A stretch of 35,793 nucleotides of DNA. It comes from a virus. The notes under the pieces were generated by a model. That model searched no databases. It was not told the origin of the DNA and saw only the letters and a program-made list of their open reading frames with translations. Positions within the stretch are counted from its first letter, which is position 1. Each line of letters begins with the position of its first letter. Below are positions 3,507 through 34,374 of the stretch, in pieces. The stretch is taken from positions 1 to 35,793 of IMG/VR virus record IMGVR_UViG_3300048838_001836; one strand, written 5' to 3'. The position numbers and the translations under genes were made by a program.

Positions 3507-4022
3507 TTACACTTCCTCCGCCGTCAGCGACCAGCTATACACGCCCGACTCCACATCCAGTTCCTCGGTCGGGCCGGCGCTGTAGAAATTGGCTTTGGGG
3601 TAATACATGAACTGATACCCGGTGGCGCCGGACACCGCGGTGGCGGTGGCGGTGTTCGTCACCACGTTGACCGGCGTGGCCACCAGCTCGCCGGCCACGA
3701 TCGCGCGCGCCAGCACGGCGTCGGCAAAATCGCTGCGCCGCGCGGCGGGCAGCGTGGCCGATACCGTGGCGGAATGGATGGTGCGCGGCTTGATGCAGCT
3801 GATTTCAACCGGCTGCGACCAGTCCACGCCATCGAGCGCGGCCGGCGCCCAGCCGGTGCCGCCGATGGTGGTGGTGAGCTTGCGCCAGTGCGTCTGCTTC
3901 ACCCCGGCACCGTTCAGCATGCGGTGCAGCGTGGCGCCTTCCAGCGGCGGATAGGACTGCGTGGCGGGCCAGGTTTGCAGGGCGAATTCCACGCCCGCGA
4001 TCTTGAGTGTAGGCACGGCCAT
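3507..4022 (-). CDS. Phage tail-associated protein, unknown function (171 aa)
   Basis: The protein starts MAVPTLKIAGVEFALQTW and contains several beta-strand-like stretches (WRKLTTTIGGTGWAPAALDG, GYQFMYYPKANFYSAGP) without recognisable catalytic motifs. Its ATG at 4022 overlaps the stop codon of the tape measure gene by one base and its TAA is directly adjacent to the GTG of the hub/fibre gene, so the three are probably translated in a coupled way. Position between tape measure and hub fits a distal-tail or tail-tip assembly protein. That is inference from order. Confidence 0.7.
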   Translation of the reverse strand: MAVPTLKIAGVEFALQTWPATQSYPPLEGATLHRMLNGAGVKQTHWRKLTTTIGGTGWAPAALDGVDWSQPVEISCIKPRTIHSATVSATLPAARRSDFADAVLARAIVAGELVATPVNVVTNTATATAVSGATGYQFMYYPKANFYSAGPTEELDVESGVYSWSLTAEEV

Positions 4023-7413: not shown

Positions 7414-7697
7414 GGGCGTGGCTGCTGCATCCTCTGGAGGATTGATTCAATCGCCTCGATGCGGCGGGCGTTTTCCTTGTGGCGCGTGTAGATCATTTCC
7501 ATGTCGCGCCGCGCATCGCTTTGCGTGTACTGGCTGGCGCGAAAGGTGTCGACCATCGTGGTCAGGTTGTCCAGCTTCGCGCTTTGCGTGGCGGCCCACC
7601 AGACGCCAACGGCGGTCTGACTGAATATGGCGAAGATCAGTACCAGCGGGATTTCCTTGCCTACATGCCAGCGCTCATCGCGTTGGGGTTGCGACAT
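7410..7697 (-). CDS. Small membrane protein with coiled coil, lysis-block (95 aa)
   Basis: One clear N-terminal membrane segment (about residues 16-36, PLVLIFAIFSQTAVGVWWAA) preceded by a charged RDERWHVGKE stretch, then an alpha-helical, charged C-terminus with heptad character (RHKENARRIEAIESILQRM). This N-in, single-TM, C-out helical layout fits either a small holin accessory or an inner-membrane spanin-like protein. No outer-membrane partner with a lipobox was found next to it, so a spanin call is not secure. It overlaps the 64-aa gene by 4 bp and lies directly before the endolysin. Confidence 0.7.
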   Translation of the reverse strand: MSQPQRDERWHVGKEIPLVLIFAIFSQTAVGVWWAATQSAKLDNLTTMVDTFRASQYTQSDARRDMEMIYTRHKENARRIEAIESILQRMQQPRP

Positions 7698-7709
7698 GAT
7701 TACCCCCCG

Positions 7710-8468
7710 TTACGCCATCTGCACTTTGTAGAACTTGGACAGACCCGCGCCGGTGATCGCCGAATCCGACAGCGCCTCGCCCGGCAGGTCCAGGCTGGCG
7801 TAATCGTCGCCCAGGTAGCTCACGTTTTGCGCGGCGCCCGGCTTGAAGCGGTGCACGCTGATGATGGCCTGCTTGCCGGATTGCGCCTCGTTGAGGCCGG
7901 CAAACACCAGCTTGAATTCCTGCGCGCTGGCGACCAGTGCCTCGACCACGCTGACGGCCTTTTTCGTGTAGTCCACTTTCAGGTTGTCGGCACTGGCGAC
8001 CGAATCGGGGATCGTGCTGCCGGACAGCACATAGATGCCCGCGCCGGTGAGGATGTAGTCGGTGCCGGCGGTGTAGGTGGTGGTGCCGGCCATGTCGGTT
8101 ACCACCGGGGCCACGGTCAGGTCGGGCACAAAATCCAGCGCCACCAGGCCGCCCTTGTAGGCGGCATGCGTTTCGTCGACTACCGCGCCAGCAGTCACGG
8201 CAGAAGTCGTGCCGAACGCACCCAGCGCCAGGTTGGTGGCGTTGATGTCGTGCGCCTTGATGTTCATCGTCACGCCGGTGATGCGCTCGATGCTGTTGGC
8301 CTTGCCGCCGCCCGCGCTGGTGTAGTCGAGCAGTTCCTTTTTCTCGGTGCCGTGGCTGAACGTCAGCTCGGCCACGTTGCCGATCGACACCATCGCCGCG
8401 CCGCCCGCGTAGGGTCCGAGGAAGATTTCGCCCTTGCCGATATATGAAGCATCTGCGATCTGTGACAT
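7710..8468 (-). CDS. Major tail tube protein (252 aa)
   Basis: The protein starts MSQIADASYIGKGEIFLGPY and is Gly/Thr/Ala-rich with alternating beta-strands, including ELTFSHGTEKKELLDYTSAGGGKAN and a C-terminal LSKFYKVQMA. This is the composition and start typical of siphophage tail tube proteins that polymerise around the tape measure. It lies downstream of the head-tail completion genes and upstream of the lysis block and tape measure, the expected order. The family is inferred from pattern and synteny; length fits. Confidence 0.8.
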   Translation of the reverse strand: MSQIADASYIGKGEIFLGPYAGGAAMVSIGNVAELTFSHGTEKKELLDYTSAGGGKANSIERITGVTMNIKAHDINATNLALGAFGTTSAVTAGAVVDETHAAYKGGLVALDFVPDLTVAPVVTDMAGTTTYTAGTDYILTGAGIYVLSGSTIPDSVASADNLKVDYTKKAVSVVEALVASAQEFKLVFAGLNEAQSGKQAIISVHRFKPGAAQNVSYLGDDYASLDLPGEALSDSAITGAGLSKFYKVQMA

Positions 8469-20184: not shown

Positions 20185-22575
20185 TCATGGCTGGCCACCC
20201 ATCGCGCGCTCGAACTCGAAAAAACATGCGGTCAGCCATTCGGCCTTGGTGCCGAAACGGTCGCGCGGCAGGTCGTGCTGGACGCTTGCCGGCGGCGCAT
20301 GCTTGACCGCATCGGTCATGGCCTGTACGCCGGGCACCACCATCTTGCGGCTCTTGATGCTCTTGTCCTTGAGCGTTGACCATGTCGACTCCGGCTTGCC
20401 TGAACTCCACCCCGGCTGTTTTCCGATGTAGTTGAGGAAGTGGTTGGCGGGCCGGGGCCGGAATTCGCCCTGGCGCTTGCACCAATCCTCGTAAACCCGA
20501 TAAAGATGCGAGCCGAGGCACGGGCAGAACGGCAGCACCTCGCCGTCGCGGCCTTCCAGTTCGAGCCGGCCCCATTCGCGCAGGAATCGTTCTTCGCTGC
20601 CCATGCCAAGGTCGATCAGATCCTGCTTGGCTTCGGTCATGGGCGGCTTGGTCCAGGGGCGGAAGTCGCCCAGGTCAAGATTCAACAGGTAGTCGTGCAG
20701 CGCGGCGACGCCGCCGGCTTCGATTTCCTCGTTGACCTCGGCGAAAAAGCCGTCGTCCGGCTTCGGTGGCGTGAAGATCACGCAATGCCGGCGGTCGTCG
20801 TTTTCCAGCGCGAGCGGTTGCCGCTCGTTGGACAGGAACACGATGTTCATCTGGTTCTTTTCGGTGTGCGCGGCGACGTTTTTTGGGTTGACGCGGATGG
20901 TGCCGCCGGTGATGAAGCCTTTTAGCCGGTTCTTGACGTGGTACATCTCGACCTTGGCCATGACCTCGTCGCCGACGATGAACAGTTTTTTCTCGGCCCA
21001 GTCGGCGTTGAACTTGTCCTCGAGCGCGTCCTGCCCCAGCACCCGCCCGTATTGGCCGTAGATTTCGGCCACCGCCTCGAAAAACCGGCTTTTCCCGGTG
21101 CCCTGCGGGCCGTGCACGACGATGGCGGACTGCATCTTGGCGCCCCGATGCTGGATCGGGTAGGCCAGCCATTTCAATATCCAGTCGTAAGTTGCGCGCG
21201 AGTTGGATTCTTCCTTGCTGCACAGATAGAACAGCAGTTCGAGCAGTATGGTGCACTTGCCGCGCACCGGCACGGTCGGCCAGCCGCCGAACAGGTTGCA
21301 GCGGATGGCCTTGTCTTTTTCCGTCGGGTCGAAGCCGATCTCGTGGTCGCGCACGACGCGCCAGCCGGGGTGCTTTTTCAGATCATCCCATCCGTGCGAT
21401 GGCAGCAGGTTCATCACGTCATCCTTGTGCACCAGCCGCCGGTCGACTTCATCGAACAGCACCTTGCCGCCCATGCCGTAGGTATTCCAGAACCGCGCCG
21501 CAGCTTCGTCAATAGTCAGACGCGGCAGCATGGCGGCGCTTTCCCCACCCCCCTCAGCGATGGCCCCCGCCGCGCGCACGCTGGGTGGCTGCCATTTCAG
21601 GTCCAGCAGGTGGGCCTCGATCTGGCTGCGCACGGCATGCTGGCCTTCGATGGCCTGCAGGTCGTTGAAGTCGGTGATTTTCTTGCCGGCGCGGTCGGCG
21701 GCGAACACCGGCGCCAGGTGCGATCCGTTGACGGCCAGCGCGGCGTTGCTGGCGGCGGTCACGCCGGGGTTGCCTTCGGTGAGGTAGTCATCATCGGCGC
21801 AGATCAGCAGCCTGGCGCGTTTGTAGTGCTTGTGCAGCGCGCCGGCGACGTGCACCAGGTTGCCGGCGTCGAACGCCACCGCCACCGGAAAACCCGTGGC
21901 CTCGTGCAGCGTGGCGGCCGTTGCGTAGCCCTCGGCCACCAGGCAGATCCATGTCGGCAGCCCGCCGATCAGGTGATAGTGCCCCTGCTTGGACAGGCCC
22001 TTTGGAAAATACTGCTTTTCCAGCTTGGTGCCGCGATTCTTGCCGCGAATGATCTGCAGGCCGTGCACCGTGCCGCGCGCGTCGGTCATCGGCACCACCA
22101 TCGTGCCGTGGCCGTTCGGGTCGAAGCGCACGCCATGTGCCGCCACACCCTTGCGCGCCAGGTAGTCCGATTCGCCCGCCGGCACATACGCCGCCCACAC
22201 CCGCGCCGCCTCACGCGCGGCCCGCTGCGCCTCGTCGTCGCGCATCGCCTTCATGCGCTTAATGTTCTCGGCCTGGCGCGCCTTCATCGCCGCGCGCAAA
22301 TCGGCGTCGACCACCATGGCCTTGCCGTCGCGGTTCAGCTTCACCGACTGCTTGCCCGAGTCGTTGCCGTGATAAATCCCGTAAGCCCCGACGATGTACG
22401 CCGCGCCGTCGATCATCACCTCGTTGAGCCAATACCAGCCGCGCCGCTCGCGCGAATCGTCATCAGTCTTGACCCGCACCGGCTTGGCCGTGCCAACCGC
22501 CAGAATGTCATCCAGCACCAGCCCGTAGCCGGAAAGCTGGTTGTGCACGTCGTCGTAGTTCGCCTGAACGCTCAA
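20185..22575 (-). CDS. Phage replication protein: toprim-like primase plus DUF5906-type helicase (796 aa)
   Basis: Residues about 205-310 form a toprim-like part (LVAEGYATAATLHEATG with Glu215, then LLICADDDY with the Asp triplet 261-263). Residues about 470-640 form an SF3-like helicase of the DUF5906 type, with Walker A HGPQGTGKSRFFEA (Lys495), LFIVGDEV as Walker B, and a VFLSNERQPLALENDDRR sensor-like motif. A protein of this design would prime and unwind the phage origin. Start is TTG at 22575, supported by GGGGAGG 5 nt before it; no ATG in this frame fits as well. Its 3' end abuts the iteron array. Confidence 0.9.
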   Translation of the reverse strand: MSVQANYDDVHNQLSGYGLVLDDILAVGTAKPVRVKTDDDSRERRGWYWLNEVMIDGAAYIVGAYGIYHGNDSGKQSVKLNRDGKAMVVDADLRAAMKARQAENIKRMKAMRDDEAQRAAREAARVWAAYVPAGESDYLARKGVAAHGVRFDPNGHGTMVVPMTDARGTVHGLQIIRGKNRGTKLEKQYFPKGLSKQGHYHLIGGLPTWICLVAEGYATAATLHEATGFPVAVAFDAGNLVHVAGALHKHYKRARLLICADDDYLTEGNPGVTAASNAALAVNGSHLAPVFAADRAGKKITDFNDLQAIEGQHAVRSQIEAHLLDLKWQPPSVRAAGAIAEGGGESAAMLPRLTIDEAAARFWNTYGMGGKVLFDEVDRRLVHKDDVMNLLPSHGWDDLKKHPGWRVVRDHEIGFDPTEKDKAIRCNLFGGWPTVPVRGKCTILLELLFYLCSKEESNSRATYDWILKWLAYPIQHRGAKMQSAIVVHGPQGTGKSRFFEAVAEIYGQYGRVLGQDALEDKFNADWAEKKLFIVGDEVMAKVEMYHVKNRLKGFITGGTIRVNPKNVAAHTEKNQMNIVFLSNERQPLALENDDRRHCVIFTPPKPDDGFFAEVNEEIEAGGVAALHDYLLNLDLGDFRPWTKPPMTEAKQDLIDLGMGSEERFLREWGRLELEGRDGEVLPFCPCLGSHLYRVYEDWCKRQGEFRPRPANHFLNYIGKQPGWSSGKPESTWSTLKDKSIKSRKMVVPGVQAMTDAVKHAPPASVQHDLPRDRFGTKAEWLTACFFEFERAMGGQP

Positions 22576-24230: not shown

Positions 24231-24458
24231 ATGGAACGCACGGAAATGGAACCCACGCCAGATGCACTCAACGCCATACACGACGCACTAGGCGCGCTAG
24301 TTTTTGCTTTAACGATGCAAATGCCAAAAGAGCAGCGCGCAGCATTCGCACAGCAACTGGCTCGGCTTGCACAAAAAAAGACTTTCGGCGGGGCCATTCT
24401 TGCAGGAACAATTCTTCTGGACTTTGCGACGGCGGCCGACTTTGCGGCAAAGAACTAG
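24231..24458 (+). CDS. Hypothetical small protein (75 aa)
   Basis: ATG 24231 follows AGGAAAGGAAC, a good Shine-Dalgarno. The sequence has an acidic start, then amphipathic helices ALNAIHDALGALVFALTMQM and KEQRAAFAQQLARLAQ, and a hydrophobic GGAILAGTILLDFATAAD segment that may be membrane-associated. No family recognised. It overlaps an opposing 95-codon ORF that is coupled to the Cro-like gene. Both cannot easily be conserved as proteins, and I favour this one slightly on its ribosome binding site and composition. Confidence 0.5.
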   Translation: MERTEMEPTPDALNAIHDALGALVFALTMQMPKEQRAAFAQQLARLAQKKTFGGAILAGTILLDFATAADFAAKN

Positions 24459-24555
24459 CGCACCAGCGCTGGTATGTGCCGTATAGCGCCTGCGGGTCTG
24501 CGGCGGAGCCTGCCGACGCAGCCCACGCGTCAACAAATTCTTTTTCTGTGGTCAT
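24268..24555 (-). CDS. Hypothetical protein downstream of Cro-like gene (95 aa)
   Basis: Starts MTTEKEFVDAWAASAGSA with ALYGTYQRWCASS; the C-terminal half is basic and less protein-like. ATG 24555 overlaps the Cro-like TGA (ATGA), and the strong leftward terminator T1 lies further downstream, which fits a cro-X operon. It is antisense to the 75-aa gene over its full length, so one of them is probably not functional. Confidence 0.4.
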   Translation of the reverse strand: MTTEKEFVDAWAASAGSAADPQALYGTYQRWCASSLPQSRPPSQSPEELFLQEWPRRKSFFVQAEPVAVRMLRAALLAFASLKQKLARLVRRVWR

Positions 24556-24749
24556 GCTGCTTTCTCCTGCTGATCTTCGAATAGGTCAGGCCGGGCGGCC
24601 TTCAGGTGCAGCAGGCGGGCGTTCGGAATGCGGCCCTGCTTGCGGAACTTGGAGACCGCCTGCCGTGTTATCTCAAAAAATTGCGCGGCCGCGACGTCGC
24701 CCCCAAGGGCCTCGACAACTTCGTCAACATTGATAGGTGATGTGCTCAT
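24552..24749 (-). CDS. Cro/YdaS-like repressor (65 aa)
   Basis: VDEVVEALGGDVAAAQFFEITRQAVSKFRKQGRIPNARLLHLKAARPDLF is the typical Cro/YdaS helix-turn-helix pattern, with recognition helix around TRQAVSKFRKQG. ATG 24749 is the first Met in a protein-like context but has no Shine-Dalgarno, so leaderless translation or an alternative start is possible. It diverges from the CI-like gene across 70 bp containing the shared palindrome, and would shift the switch to lytic growth by blocking CI synthesis. Confidence 0.8.
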   Translation of the reverse strand: MSTSPINVDEVVEALGGDVAAAQFFEITRQAVSKFRKQGRIPNARLLHLKAARPDLFEDQQEKAA

Positions 24750-24757
24750 GGATTTAT

Positions 24758-24771
24758 TGAACCATAGTTCA
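24758..24771. promoter_or_regulatory. Operator palindrome O1 in the CI-Cro divergent region
   Basis: TGAACCATAGTTCA: 5-bp perfect arms around CATA. The identical site, on the opposite strand, recurs at 26072. It lies 8 bp before the Cro-like ATG; TTGACT on the minus strand just upstream may be the -35 box of the leftward promoter. Confidence 0.75.
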
Positions 24772-24819
24772 GTCAACAGCGCAACCCAAGTTAAAGTTAT
24801 TTCGCGCACAATCCGATGT

Positions 24820-25152
24820 ATGAGCACGCTGGCCGAACGAATCAAGGAAATAATGGATGCGACCGGGCTGACCATCCAGCAGATGGCAGATATATGCGGA
24901 TGCAGCTATCAGGCCGTGAAAAAGTGGACTACTGGCGCATCCACAAGCATTGGCGGAGAGCACCTGATCTCCCTGGCGGAAAAGACTGGCTACGAGGCAA
25001 AATGGATCATCACGGGCAAAGGCCCGAAGCACCGGACATACGCGAAGAACGAGATCCAGGCAGATACGCTTTGCACCATGGAAAAACTACCCGCAGCTGA
25101 TCAATATAAGATCCGTGCAGTCGCCGAGGTGATCAGCGACACGCAGCATTAA
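24820..25152 (+). CDS. CI-like lysogeny repressor, short form (110 aa)
   Basis: N-terminal XRE-type HTH (LAERIKEIMDATGLTIQQMADICGCSYQAVKKWTTG, recognition helix about 28-36), then ISLAEKTGYEAKWIITGKGP, a frequent helical end of phage repressors. The C-terminal 35 residues are helical. There is no S24 peptidase domain, so RecA-stimulated self-cleavage is not expected and induction must work otherwise. ATG 24820 lacks a Shine-Dalgarno, as in leaderless cI transcripts; the upstream in-frame extension is the antisense of the Cro-like gene. Confidence 0.8.
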   Translation: MSTLAERIKEIMDATGLTIQQMADICGCSYQAVKKWTTGASTSIGGEHLISLAEKTGYEAKWIITGKGPKHRTYAKNEIQADTLCTMEKLPAADQYKIRAVAEVISDTQH

Positions 25153-25170
25153 CCACAAAAGGGATTCGCC

Positions 25171-25662
25171 ATGGCGCTCATCAAGTGCGGGGAATGTGGC
25201 AAGCAGTTTTCGACGGACGCCAAAGCCTGCCCGCATTGCGGCGGCAAGGCGCCATACAAACCCGGCGCGGCATTCATCCTGGTCGTCGGCCTGCTGATCG
25301 TCTTCGGCATCAGTGCATCGATTGAATCGAGCCAGCCGCCGCCCGAGGCCGCGCCAAAGACAGCCGAGCAGATTGCACAGGACCAAGCCCAGGAACGCCG
25401 CCATCTGGTCGTACTCATCACCGCAAAAAAACTGAAGGACTCCATGCGCGAGCCCGATTCGGTCGAATGGCTCTACATGGGCACCGACGAAAAGGCCGAG
25501 GTAGTGTGCCTGCGCTACCGAGCCCGCAACGGGTTCGGCGGCATGGCGGTCGAGACCATGACCATCACCACCAAGGAAGCCGGACAGGAAGCCGAGCTAT
25601 GGAACCGCCACTGCATCCGCGACGGCCTCTATGACATGCTGTATGTCCGCAATGCCATCTAG
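25171..25662 (+). CDS. Zinc-ribbon membrane protein (163 aa)
   Basis: An N-terminal zinc ribbon (CGECGKQFSTDAKACPHCGG: CxxC-11-CxxC) is followed by one membrane segment (about 34-52, AAFILVVGLLIVFGISASI) and a periplasmic or cytoplasmic domain of 110 residues (LKDSMREPDSVEWLYMGTD, VVCLRYRARNGFGGM). The C-terminal domain is seen in phage and bacterial membrane proteins of unknown function. AAAGGGA precedes ATG 25171. Directly downstream of the repressor, so probably expressed in the lysogen. A superinfection-exclusion or lysogenic-conversion role is a guess from position. Confidence 0.75.
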   Translation: MALIKCGECGKQFSTDAKACPHCGGKAPYKPGAAFILVVGLLIVFGISASIESSQPPPEAAPKTAEQIAQDQAQERRHLVVLITAKKLKDSMREPDSVEWLYMGTDEKAEVVCLRYRARNGFGGMAVETMTITTKEAGQEAELWNRHCIRDGLYDMLYVRNAI

Positions 25663-25667
25663 CCGCC

Positions 25668-25871
25668 ATGATCCAGCCCGACGTTGTTTCTGTAATCAAG
25701 GATGACGAAAGAGACATCACCTATCGCATTGTTGCCTACCGCGCCCTAACGTATGCGGAGAAGGTTTCCGCCGTGCGGACCTTCCTCGCCCAAAAGAAAA
25801 AGCCAAAGCTCAAAACCGGCTCCACCATCACCATCCTGACCATCATCGGCCACGACGCGCCTGCCGCCTGA
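25668..25871 (+). CDS. Hypothetical small protein (67 aa)
   Basis: MIQPDVVSVIKDDERDITYRI... with a YRALTYAEKVSAVRTFLAQKK helix and a beta end STITILTIIGHD. No family recognised. It follows the zinc-ribbon gene by 5 bp, so it is likely co-transcribed. The 3' end overlaps, in convergent orientation, a 49-codon ORF on the other strand. Confidence 0.55.
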   Translation: MIQPDVVSVIKDDERDITYRIVAYRALTYAEKVSAVRTFLAQKKKPKLKTGSTITILTIIGHDAPAA

Positions 25872-25992
25872 TCCATCGTAGTTTCCCCGGCGTAAGCATC
25901 TTTCCACCATTGCGGTGGAACTCTTGCTCAACAGCCCGCCACACCCTGGCAGGCAGTGCCCGCCATCCCGCATAAGCGACAACCGTTTCCAT
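25843..25992 (-). CDS. Short basic ORF behind a repressor-controlled promoter (49 aa)
   Basis: ATG 25992 to TGA 25843 encodes METVVAYAGWRALPARVWR, then AVEQEFHRNGGKML, and a strongly basic end WIRRQARRGR. AAGG lies about 9 nt before the ATG. It is the first open frame after a near-consensus leftward promoter (-35 26090-26095, -10 26066-26071) that carries the CI/Cro palindrome in its spacer. The TTCCACC...GGTGGAA inverted repeat in this stretch lies inside the ORF. No family recognised; a small DNA- or RNA-binding protein is possible. Confidence 0.45.
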   Translation of the reverse strand: METVVAYAGWRALPARVWRAVEQEFHRNGGKMLTPGKLRWIRRQARRGR

Positions 25993-26009
25993 CTGTAGCG
26001 CCTTTTTAA

Positions 26010-26024
26010 CCCGCCCAAGGCGGG
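26010..26024. other. GC hairpin in leader between promoter and 49-aa ORF
   Basis: CCCGCC-CAA-GGCGGG, 6-bp perfect stem. On the minus strand it is followed by TTAAAAAGG and on the plus strand by a later T-rich stretch, so it is only a weak terminator either way; it may be an attenuator or mRNA-stability element. Confidence 0.4.
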
Positions 26025-26048
26025 CGTGGATTTATTTTGCCATAAAAT

Positions 26049-26062
26049 TGAACTACAGTTGC
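26049..26062. promoter_or_regulatory. Operator-like site O3 (one mismatch)
   Basis: TGAACTACAGTTG: the same arms as the palindromes at 24758 and 26072 with one base changed, centred about 23 bp from O2, roughly two helical turns. It covers the expected start point of the leftward promoter. Confidence 0.55.
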
Positions 26063-26065
26063 ATT

Positions 26066-26095
26066 ATTATATGAACTATGGTTCAATCATTCCAA
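26066..26095 (-). promoter_or_regulatory. Strong leftward promoter with operator in spacer
   Basis: Minus strand: TTGGAA, 18-bp spacer, TATAAT. The spacer is TGAT plus the 14-bp palindrome, an arrangement that would let a bound repressor block RNA polymerase. Predicted start about 26059. I find no equally good rightward promoter for the 26218 operon in this region. Confidence 0.65.
26072..26085. promoter_or_regulatory. Operator palindrome O2
   Basis: TGAACTATGGTTCA, the exact reverse complement of O1 at 24758, 1.3 kb away. The 132 bp from here to the first gene (26218) are an untranslated leader with no further assigned element. Confidence 0.75.
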
Positions 26096-26217: not shown

Positions 26218-26430
26218 ATGGCTGAGATGACTGAACTTGAAAAGCTGATCGCCCGGATCTGGGCGCGCAGCCTGGGCACCACCGATTCGTGGTGGGGCGT
26301 GTACCAGACGCTGACCGATCTGGCGGACGGGCTGCAGGCCGCGTGGCGCGATGCCGACGCCGACGCGGTGCGCACGGCGGCTTATGTGGCGATGGATCAT
26401 TCGATTACACGGATTCGGGAGGCAGCATGA
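26218..26430 (+). CDS. Hypothetical early protein (70 aa)
   Basis: MAEMTELEKLIARIWARSLGTTDSWWGVYQTLTDLADGL... entirely helical, acidic, with Trp pairs. AGGAG 7 nt before ATG 26218. First gene of a tightly packed rightward operon downstream of the operators. Function unknown. Confidence 0.65.
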   Translation: MAEMTELEKLIARIWARSLGTTDSWWGVYQTLTDLADGLQAAWRDADADAVRTAAYVAMDHSITRIREAA

Positions 26431-32246: not shown

Positions 32247-33269
32247 ATGACTGAAACAATCGAACACAACGCGACAGCACAACCGGACACGCCAGCCGTG
32301 TCCGCCAAACCGCGCCTGCTCGATCAGATGCGCGAAATCATCCGGGTCAAGCACTACAGCATCCGCACCGAGAAAACCTACATCGGATGGGTGCGGCAGT
32401 TCATCCGCTGGAGCGGCATGCGCCATCCGGCCGACATGGGCGCGGCCGAGGTCGAGGCGTTTTTATCCATGCTGGCCAATCAGCGCGACGTATCTGGCAG
32501 CACGCAGAACCAGGCGCTGGCCGCGCTGCTGTTTTTATACAAGCAGGTGCTCGGTATCGACCTGCCGTGGCTCGAAGGCATCACCCGCGCCAAGAAGCCG
32601 GCGCGGCTTCCGGTTGTGCTCACCCAGGCCGAAGTCGCCGCCATCATCGGCCACAACAGCGGCACCAATGGACTCATCATCCGCCTGCTGTACGGCACCG
32701 GCATGCGCCTCATGGAAGCCCTGCGCCTGCGCATCAAGGACATCGAACTCGCCAGCAACATCATCCTGGTGCGCGGCGGCAAGGGCGACAAGGACCGCGT
32801 CGTGCCATTGCCATCCAGCCTGCTGCAGTCGCTGCGCGACCAGATCGCGGCCCGGCGCAAAATGCACGACATCGACCTAGCACGCGGCATGGTCGACGTT
32901 GAACTGCCGCACGCGCTCTGGAAAAAATACCCCAACGCGCCCAAGGAATGGGCGTGGCAGTATGTGTTCGCAGCCGCCGACTACAGCGCCGACCCGCGCA
33001 CCGGCGTCATAAGGCGGCACCACATCCACGAAAAAACCATCCAGCGCGCCATGCGCGCCGCCGTCATCGCGTCCGGCATCCACAAGCCGGCCTCATGTCA
33101 CACTTTGAGACACAGTTTTGCGACGCACCTGCTCGAACACGGCACCGACATCCGCACCATCCAGCAGCTGCTTGGCCACAGCGACGTGAGCACCACCATG
33201 ATCTACACCCACGTCATCAACAAAGGCGCGGCCGGTGCGCTGAGTCCGCTCGACAGGATCAGCGCATGA
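32247..33269 (+). CDS. intI: Integron integrase (IntI-type tyrosine recombinase, 340 aa)
   Basis: Full length compared with IntI1 (337 aa). N-terminal SAM-like core-binding region (about 22-115: YSIRTEKTYIGWVRQFIRW). Catalytic residues: Arg154 (YGTGMRLMEALRLR), Lys near GGKGDKDR (179/182), His285/Arg288 (CHTLRHSFATHL), His311 (LLGHSDVSTTMIYTH) and Tyr320. Residues about 223-243 (ALWKKYPNAPKEWAWQYVF) are the extra helix specific to integron integrases, absent from XerC/D, which makes the call secure. GGAGA lies 9 nt before ATG 32247. Its TGA overlaps the next ATG (ATGA), joining it to the excisionase-integrase pair. It would recombine attC sites as folded bottom strands. Confidence 0.95.
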   Translation: MTETIEHNATAQPDTPAVSAKPRLLDQMREIIRVKHYSIRTEKTYIGWVRQFIRWSGMRHPADMGAAEVEAFLSMLANQRDVSGSTQNQALAALLFLYKQVLGIDLPWLEGITRAKKPARLPVVLTQAEVAAIIGHNSGTNGLIIRLLYGTGMRLMEALRLRIKDIELASNIILVRGGKGDKDRVVPLPSSLLQSLRDQIAARRKMHDIDLARGMVDVELPHALWKKYPNAPKEWAWQYVFAAADYSADPRTGVIRRHHIHEKTIQRAMRAAVIASGIHKPASCHTLRHSFATHLLEHGTDIRTIQQLLGHSDVSTTMIYTHVINKGAAGALSPLDRISA

Positions 33270-33544
33270 CCGCATCCGCACTCACCCGCCAGCAGCTATG
33301 CGCGGCCCTCACCATCAGCGAGTCCACCGTGCGCCGGCTCGAACTCGACGGCATGCCCTATACTCCAGTCGGGATCAGGGCAAAACGCTATGATCTGGAA
33401 GAATGCAAGCAATGGCTGCGGGATAATCAATGTCAATCTGGACAGACAAACAAGGGCGGCGCCACGTCGGCATTATGGCCGGAGGCCGCCGAGTTCATCG
33501 CATCCTACCGCAAGGCTCAACTGCGGGTGATGCCAAGCAGCTAG
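33266..33544 (+). CDS. Excisionase-like / MerR-type HTH protein (92 aa)
   Basis: LTRQQLCAALTISESTVRRLELDGMPYTPVGIRAKRYDLEECKQWL is an HTH of the excisionase/AlpA type with a wing. The C-terminal tail (SALWPEAAEFIASYRKAQLRVMPSS) overlaps the integrase start by 115 nt in another frame; phage excisionase genes of this kind often end with such an LRVMPS tail over the integrase start. ATG 33266 overlaps the intI stop. Likely directs excision together with the integrase. Confidence 0.75.
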   Translation: MTASALTRQQLCAALTISESTVRRLELDGMPYTPVGIRAKRYDLEECKQWLRDNQCQSGQTNKGGATSALWPEAAEFIASYRKAQLRVMPSS

Positions 33545-34374
33545 AATCCGAACTGCGCGGCGCGCTCGCGCTCGAAAAGAAACCGCGCATTCCAGGCGAC
33601 CCGCGCCTCACCGAAGTCATCAGCCTATACATCGCCCACGCCGACACCCTGCGCAGCGCATCCACCGCCAAACACCACGCCAACCGCATCGGACCATGGC
33701 TCGAAAAATACCGCGCCAGCCAATCCCGCCAGGCCGCCGCCCACATCATCAAGGACATGACCGGACACTACGCCGCCGGCACCATCAACAAAAGCCTGGG
33801 CACCCTCAAAAAAGCCCTGAACATTGCCTGGACCAGCGAACTCACCGCCACCGACTACAGCGCGCACGTCAAACGCATCCCCGAAAACAACGCCCGCAGC
33901 ATCTACCTAACCATCGAACAAGTGCAGGCCATCGCCGCCCGCTGCAGCCCGCCCATGCAAGCCGCCATCTGGATCGCCCTGATGACCGGAGCCCGGCGCG
34001 GCGAAATCTGCAAACTCAAGGCCAAAGACATCAGCCGCGACAGCATCCTGCTGCATTCCGGCAACACCAAAACCCTGCGCACCCGCACCGTGCCCATCGT
34101 CGCCCCCGTGCGGCCATGGCTCAAACTGATCCCGCTGGCCATCAAGCCCGAAGGCATCAAAACCGCATGGCGGCGCGCACGCGAAGCCGAAGGCATGCCC
34201 GACATCAACTTCCACGACCTGCGCCACAGCTGCGCCAGCATCCTCATCGCCAGCGGAGCCGACCTCTACACCGTATCCAAGATACTAGGCCACGCCAGCG
34301 TCAAAACCACCGAGCGCTATGCGCACATGAAAATCGAACAGCAGCGCGCCGCGCTCGATCACGCTTTCAAATAA
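33430..34374 (+). CDS. Phage site-specific tyrosine integrase (314 aa)
   Basis: Inserts and excises the prophage at the adjacent tRNA. N-terminal arm-binding-like part (MSIWTDKQGRRHVGIMAGGR), core-binding region (about 60-145), catalytic domain with Arg189 or Arg190 (MTGARRGEICKL), His262/Arg265 (FHDLRHSCASI), His288 (ILGHAS) and Tyr297 (TTERYAHM). ATG 33430 is chosen because the matching phage integrase N-terminus begins here, inside the excisionase gene. The stop is 8 bp from the tRNA 3' end, the usual place for a phage integrase. Confidence 0.95.
   Translation: MSIWTDKQGRRHVGIMAGGRRVHRILPQGSTAGDAKQLESELRGALALEKKPRIPGDPRLTEVISLYIAHADTLRSASTAKHHANRIGPWLEKYRASQSRQAAAHIIKDMTGHYAAGTINKSLGTLKKALNIAWTSELTATDYSAHVKRIPENNARSIYLTIEQVQAIAARCSPPMQAAIWIALMTGARRGEICKLKAKDISRDSILLHSGNTKTLRTRTVPIVAPVRPWLKLIPLAIKPEGIKTAWRRAREAEGMPDINFHDLRHSCASILIASGADLYTVSKILGHASVKTTERYAHMKIEQQRAALDHAFK

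Follow-up and report, generated by a model that had tools for sequence, protein, structure and literature searches.

A phage record in the IMG/VR database carries, 1.3 kb from the operator between its divergent CI-like and Cro-like genes, a second and identical operator placed within what looks like a strong promoter, and the locus raises the question of what this distant copy controls. The original prediction was that the promoter points left, at a short basic ORF of 49 codons, and that the operator controls a microprotein or an antisense RNA, possibly with looping between the two sites.

The phage record and its gene map

The window analysed is the entire IMG/VR virus record of 35,793 bases, or 71.6 kb of strand. 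As read from its sequence, it is a temperate phage, and its operator region is an immunity region built like that of lambda. Leftward genes encode a tape measure protein, a major head protein, TerL, a ParB/methyltransferase-like protein and TerS, together with a replication protein (20185-22575) that matches phage primases, and the rightward genes run from 26218 on to two tyrosine integrases (32247-33269 and 33430-34374). These two tyrosine-recombinase genes are adjacent and different; in the collinear record G8, introduced below, the first has a clear match (66%) and the second a partial one only. The features of the operator region, in order, are as follows.

24552-24749, minus strand: Cro-like gene of 65 aa with a YdaS/P22-Cro-like HTH, which opens the leftward lytic/replication operon
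24756-24784, minus strand: predicted outward cro promoter, TTGCGC-17-TTCAAT with a TGn extension, placed by the geometry of the relatives' outward promoters
24758-24771, plus strand: predicted proximal (OR-like) strong operator, TGAACCATAGTTCA, from the site search
24781-24794, plus strand: predicted proximal weak operator, GCAACCCAAGTTAA, its centre 23 bp from that of the strong site
24820-25152, plus strand: CI-like repressor, 110 aa, HTH_3 / Phage_CI_repr (Pfam)
25171-25662, plus strand: ORF2 of the cI operon, a zinc-ribbon protein whose C-terminal part is phrog_2320-like, placed as the rex genes are in lambda
25668-25871, plus strand: ORF3 of the cI operon, 67 aa, no assigned function, gene-like codon usage
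25843-25992, minus strand: 49-codon open frame, coding status doubtful
26010-26024, plus strand: hairpin CCCGCC-CAA-GGCGGG with a T-rich tail to its right, predicted terminator of the cI operon
26032-26048, plus strand: A/T-rich near-palindrome, TTATTTTGCCATAAAAT, 17 nt identical in G8
26049-26062, minus strand: predicted distal weak operator, GCAACTGTAGTTCA, its centre 23 bp from that of the strong site
26059-26087, plus strand: predicted outward early promoter, TTGCAT-17-TTCAAT with a TGn extension, placed by the same geometry
26066-26095, minus strand: predicted inward promoter, TTGGAA-18-TATAAT, score 12.0, with the strong operator inside its spacer
26072-26085, minus strand: predicted distal (OL-like) strong operator, TGAACCATAGTTCA, from the site search
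26218-26430, plus strand: first gene of the rightward early operon that leads to the integrases, 70 aa, gene-like codon usage

The repressor and cro genes are divergent, with operators in between. The CI-like gene matches PF01381 (E = 1.8e-7) and PF07022 (E = 5.5e-5), both over the cut-off; the Cro-like gene matches PF15943 (E = 1.2e-4) and PF14549 (E = 4.2e-4), both under the curated cut-off, and has PHROG regulator matches and homologues in L027, L029 and L039. Pfam and PHROGs recognized HTH families only in the 110-residue repressor, and no peptidase or self-cleaving C-terminal domain. ORF2 is possibly an exclusion gene expressed in the lysogen; its phrog_2320 family is also seen in L038, there in a protein encoded on the opposite strand and adjoining the distal array. 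On the side of the leftward operon lies a small rightward gene (24232-24458, plus strand) that resembles a gene of the G8 cI operon (reverse complement 7549-7830), so that its place differs between the two phages.

Two inverted operator arrays flank the repressor operon

The two 14-bp copies of TGAACCATAGTTCA, at 24758-24771 (plus strand) and 26072-26085 (minus strand), are identical as had been predicted, with no mismatch, and are inverted with respect to one another. The repetition exceeds chance, and no third site at up to two mismatches was found in the whole 35.8 kb. The distal copy lies, again as predicted, wholly within the 18-bp spacer of TTGGAA/TATAAT (26095-26066, minus strand). A one-mismatch copy 23 bp further on had also been described, and a related site, GCAACTGTAGTTCA, does stand at exactly that distance, but it differs from TGAACCATAGTTCA at four of 14 positions, two of them among the ten palindrome positions, and was not recovered in a search at up to three mismatches. 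The earlier reading overlooked the proximal weak partner, GCAACCCAAGTTAA, and a 50-nt inverted repeat (24749-24798 and 26045-26094, 74% complementary) that holds both arrays. Each array is a pair of one strong and one weak site, the weaker (GCAACnnnnGTTnA) lying exactly 23 bp inward of the stronger in both, and the two inverted arrays flank cI-ORF2-ORF3 about 1.3 kb apart, the second on the far side of the cI operon.

The near-palindrome TTATTTTGCCATAAAAT precedes the distal array in the window and in G8 alike, though the neighbouring operators differ, and its position suggests an UP-element-like role for the rightward promoter. Read leftward, it contains ATGGCAAAATAA, a three-codon frame. The pattern TTTTGCCATAAAA..TTATTATA, common to the window and G8, was searched across IMG/VR, where G8 alone among the matches is related; the rest lie in A/T-rich phages and look like the opposite-strand starts of genes beginning Met-Ala-Lys.

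Relatives keep the layout with other operator sequences

Searches with cI, ORF2 and the early-gene protein, and by blastn against phage records, gave no close relative of the window's immunity region, and the TerL relatives in IMG/VR were fragments without an immunity region, except G8 (IMGVR_UViG_3300034191_000023). This record is collinear with the window (TerL 63%, replication protein 54% and integrase 66% identical) and has the same order of cro, cI, small genes, hairpin and distal array, with a similar hairpin at the same place. Its operator, ACACGCCATGTTTA, is unrelated to TGAACCATAGTTCA and has an inverted copy 1.6 kb away. Among the other relatives, which were found via the replication protein, inverted operator copies of other sequences occur in the prophages L034 (1.4 kb apart) and L036 (2.0 kb), while the prophages L116 and L120 each have two near-perfect sites at both places, 25 bp apart in arrays separated by 4.5 kb in the former and 23 bp apart in arrays separated by 0.9 kb in the latter; L033 and L038 have probable inverted copies, with a looser match. 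Two further candidates, the prophages L032 and L039, were set aside as a different arrangement: their probable second operator cluster lies about 4.5 kb away, next to leftward genes. The relatives differ in the accessory genes that separate cI from the far array, and in the adjoining leftward ORFs. In L120 this interval contains a second HTH gene, encoded leftward (at about 3690-3971 in window orientation).

Because independent relatives show the same architecture with different operator sequences, we read the sites as repressor operators, and there is good support for one such operator between cI and cro and another at a distant promoter. What the sequences show directly is the operators with their spacing, pairing and inversion, the order of the genes and the skeleton common to the relatives; protein binding is inferred. 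Since the relatives keep the skeleton with different operator sequences, the region is a lambda-like OR/OL immunity region with an operator sequence of its own, an ordinary kind of system, though an instructive one.

Predicted outward promoters at both arrays

When the relatives' arrays are aligned on the strong operator, each reads as a weak site, a -35 hexamer at its end, a spacer and a strong site over the -10 hexamer. This outward geometry is found at both arrays in G8, L036, L116 and L038, and mostly in L034 and L120; in these relatives the outer half of the operator holds the -10, the -35 falls where the weak site ends, and the promoters are strong. The arrays of the window have the same outward layout with weaker hexamers. 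On the outward strand both read TTGC..-17-TTCAAT, the left one facing the cro/replication operon and the right one the early operon on the integrase side, where the strong operator overlaps the spacer and -10 of the rightward promoter (26059-26087). The two promoters score 6.5, which is weak and not significant alone against an E. coli consensus that may not be that of the host; the relatives are mostly from Burkholderiales. The G8 counterpart of the rightward promoter, TTGACT-17-TGTAAT, scores 11.4.

Because this geometry recurs in G8, L036, L116, L038 and others, we conclude that the distal operator mainly serves the rightward promoter. The placing of the operator at a distant promoter stands, but the promoter that it chiefly governs points right, to the operon at 26218. 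We consider it very probable that the whole is a paired-operator switch over two outward operons in the lambda-like OR/OL layout. In such a switch CI, and probably also Cro, bound to both arrays would shut the two outward promoters, of which the left would lead through cro to the replication and structural genes and the right from 26218 via the early operon to the integrases. The activity of these promoters is predicted from sequence.

The putative inward promoter and the 49-codon ORF

The inward match, TTGGAA-18-TATAAT, scores 12.0 by the E. coli model, second best in the 71.6 kb of strand, and when the operator region was put through dinucleotide shuffles, only 0.7% of these scored as high (p = 0.007). 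Counts of promoter-like sites with nine of 12 matches were not above chance in the 3-kb region, with one found and 1.2 expected. Its placement with respect to the operator matches that of the outward promoters, on the opposite strand. In the window as a whole, the best sigma-70-like match, TTGACA-16-TATTAT (29748-29721, minus strand), points leftward inside the rightward early operon. Of the strong leftward promoter originally proposed, the hexamers and spacer are present and locally beyond chance, and activity is plausible as that of an additional promoter; we judge it slightly the likelier outcome that it works. Weaker inward matches occur in G8 (10.0, p = 0.08), L116 (9.6, p = 0.10) and L033 (10.4, p = 0.05). 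In each of the three, a leftward ORF with a good ribosome site adjoins the array on its left; these ORFs have 65, 68 and 71 aa, respectively, and that of L033 matches PHROG 21839 at 2.3e-20. In L036, L120 and L038, and at this position in L034, the inward promoter is either missing or weak; at its distal array L038 has a leftward 162-aa gene (phrog_2320) with no good inward promoter, and none is obvious in L034 or L036. Because such matches and leftward ORFs are found in some relatives and not in others, a repressor-controlled convergent transcript seems plausible, though not general.

The frame at 25843-25992 (minus strand) is indeed open, but the microprotein proposed for it is unsupported. 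No homologue was found in phage records, IMG/VR, the relatives' records, Pfam or PHROGs, and a match in L102 was discarded, as it lies inside a portal-like protein and had been picked by an eight-residue match. The codon score is an atypical -0.39. Spurious ORFs have a median of -0.44, and 41% of them do as well as this frame; for windows of real genes the median is 0.44, and only 4% are as low. The score does not disprove coding, since two neighbouring ORFs, of which 24232-24458 has a match in G8, also score low. The length is at chance level, an ATG ORF of 49 codons lying within 100 nt of 47% of positions, and of 9% when a 4-nt SD is included. In the leader, the 5' end is predicted to pair with the bases just before the ATG (z = -2.67).

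These results bear directly on the proposal that the main job of the distal operator is to control a leftward promoter driving a repressor-regulated 49-aa protein. The leftward promoter is the strongest match at either array, AAGG stands 8 nt ahead of the ATG, and leftward ORFs occur at the same place in G8, L116, L033 and L038; those ORFs, however, are not similar to this one, and with a frame that lacks homologues, scores like a spurious ORF, is of a length common by chance and has a leader predicted to fold onto the bases preceding its ATG, we regard the proposal as improbable. If the inward promoter works, an effect at the RNA level on the convergent cI operon is a better guess than a microprotein. 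The product could be a short antisense RNA, non-coding and directed at the 3' part of the cI operon, which would lower the output of the repressor operon after the switch tips. The promoter match, its convergent position, the leader fold and the course of the RNA, which would cross the terminator hairpin of the cI operon and ORF3, are all consistent with this, but a clear terminator for the leftward transcript was not found (a candidate near 25785 folds no better than its shuffles) and the inward promoter is not kept in all relatives, leaving the antisense reading possible but doubtful.

It is also quite possible, if somewhat short of probable, that no leftward transcription takes place and that TTGGAA-TATAAT is a by-product of the rightward promoter, whose A/T-rich spacer simply reads TATAAT in reverse. 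G8 also has TTATTATA, together with a poor inward -35, an inward promoter is missing from several relatives, and the regional counts are at chance level; the rarity of the score among local shuffles, its second rank in the window and the coincidence of inward matches with leftward ORFs in three relatives argue the other way. Under the paired-operator switch, which we prefer, the putative inward promoter (26095-26066), being overlapped by the distal array, would be kept silent in the lysogen by CI. After induction it would be transcribed towards the cI operon, and this convergent RNA would work by an antisense effect or by collision, and not chiefly through the 49-aa ORF. An extension of this, which we consider rather unlikely, is that the distal operator is a two-way switch throughout this phage group, one CI-bound site silencing both the rightward operon and the inward promoter; loss of CI would then also start convergent interference with cI expression, and some relatives would make small proteins from the same inward RNA.

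Comparison with known switches

The immunity region of lambda contains OR, OL, cI, rexA/rexB and cro, and its accessory genes follow cI before the far array. As in lambda, two operator arrays in the window flank the repressor operon, replication lies on the cro side, the far array would drive an early operon towards integrase genes, and the accessory genes after cI end at a predicted terminator before the far array. G8, L034, L036, L116 and L120 share the inverted operators around the cI operon and the outward-promoter geometry, each with its own operator sequence. The differences are that lambda has three sites per array and the window two, the second weak; that the arrays are 1.3 kb apart rather than 2.3 kb; that the accessory genes are unrelated to those of lambda; that a strong-looking promoter faces inward from the far array; and that the window CI, at 110 aa, has no recognized cleavage or cooperativity domain, unlike lambda CI. 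As a cleavage domain is not recognized, we class the region as lambda-like in layout and not as a lambdoid CI system.

In lambda, CI octamers join OR and OL, 2.3 kb apart, in a loop in which PRM is subject to an UP element located near OL (PMC3708714). In the present group the repressor of L033 has 241 aa, with a C-terminal part that appears LexA-like by eye, and since the window CI is short and the L033 repressor long, the paired arrays do not seem to depend on a lambda-type CI. To account for these arrays, co-repression of two operons is enough.

The conjugation switch of pLS20 has overlapping divergent promoters, Pc and Pr, and looping by RcoLS20 (PMC4207663). It resembles the window in having an operator over two divergent overlapping promoters and a second operator apart (PMC4207663), but it belongs to a Gram-positive plasmid, uses a tetrameric Rco and is not a phage immunity region, and in the window the divergent pair is at the distal array and putative. 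The closest named phage, Stenotrophomonas phage S1 (replication protein 45% over 90%, TerL 39%), showed no matching inverted operator pair around its repressor.

The lambda OR/OL layout recurs, then, in phages mostly of Burkholderiales, in which operator sequences are freely exchanged on a fixed promoter skeleton. The window phage has this layout with a short CI, and the group, which includes both short and long repressors, makes it possible to ask what keeps distant paired operators in place, looping or simply the joint repression of two operons. A working inward promoter would add to this type of switch a convergent transcript directed against the repressor operon.
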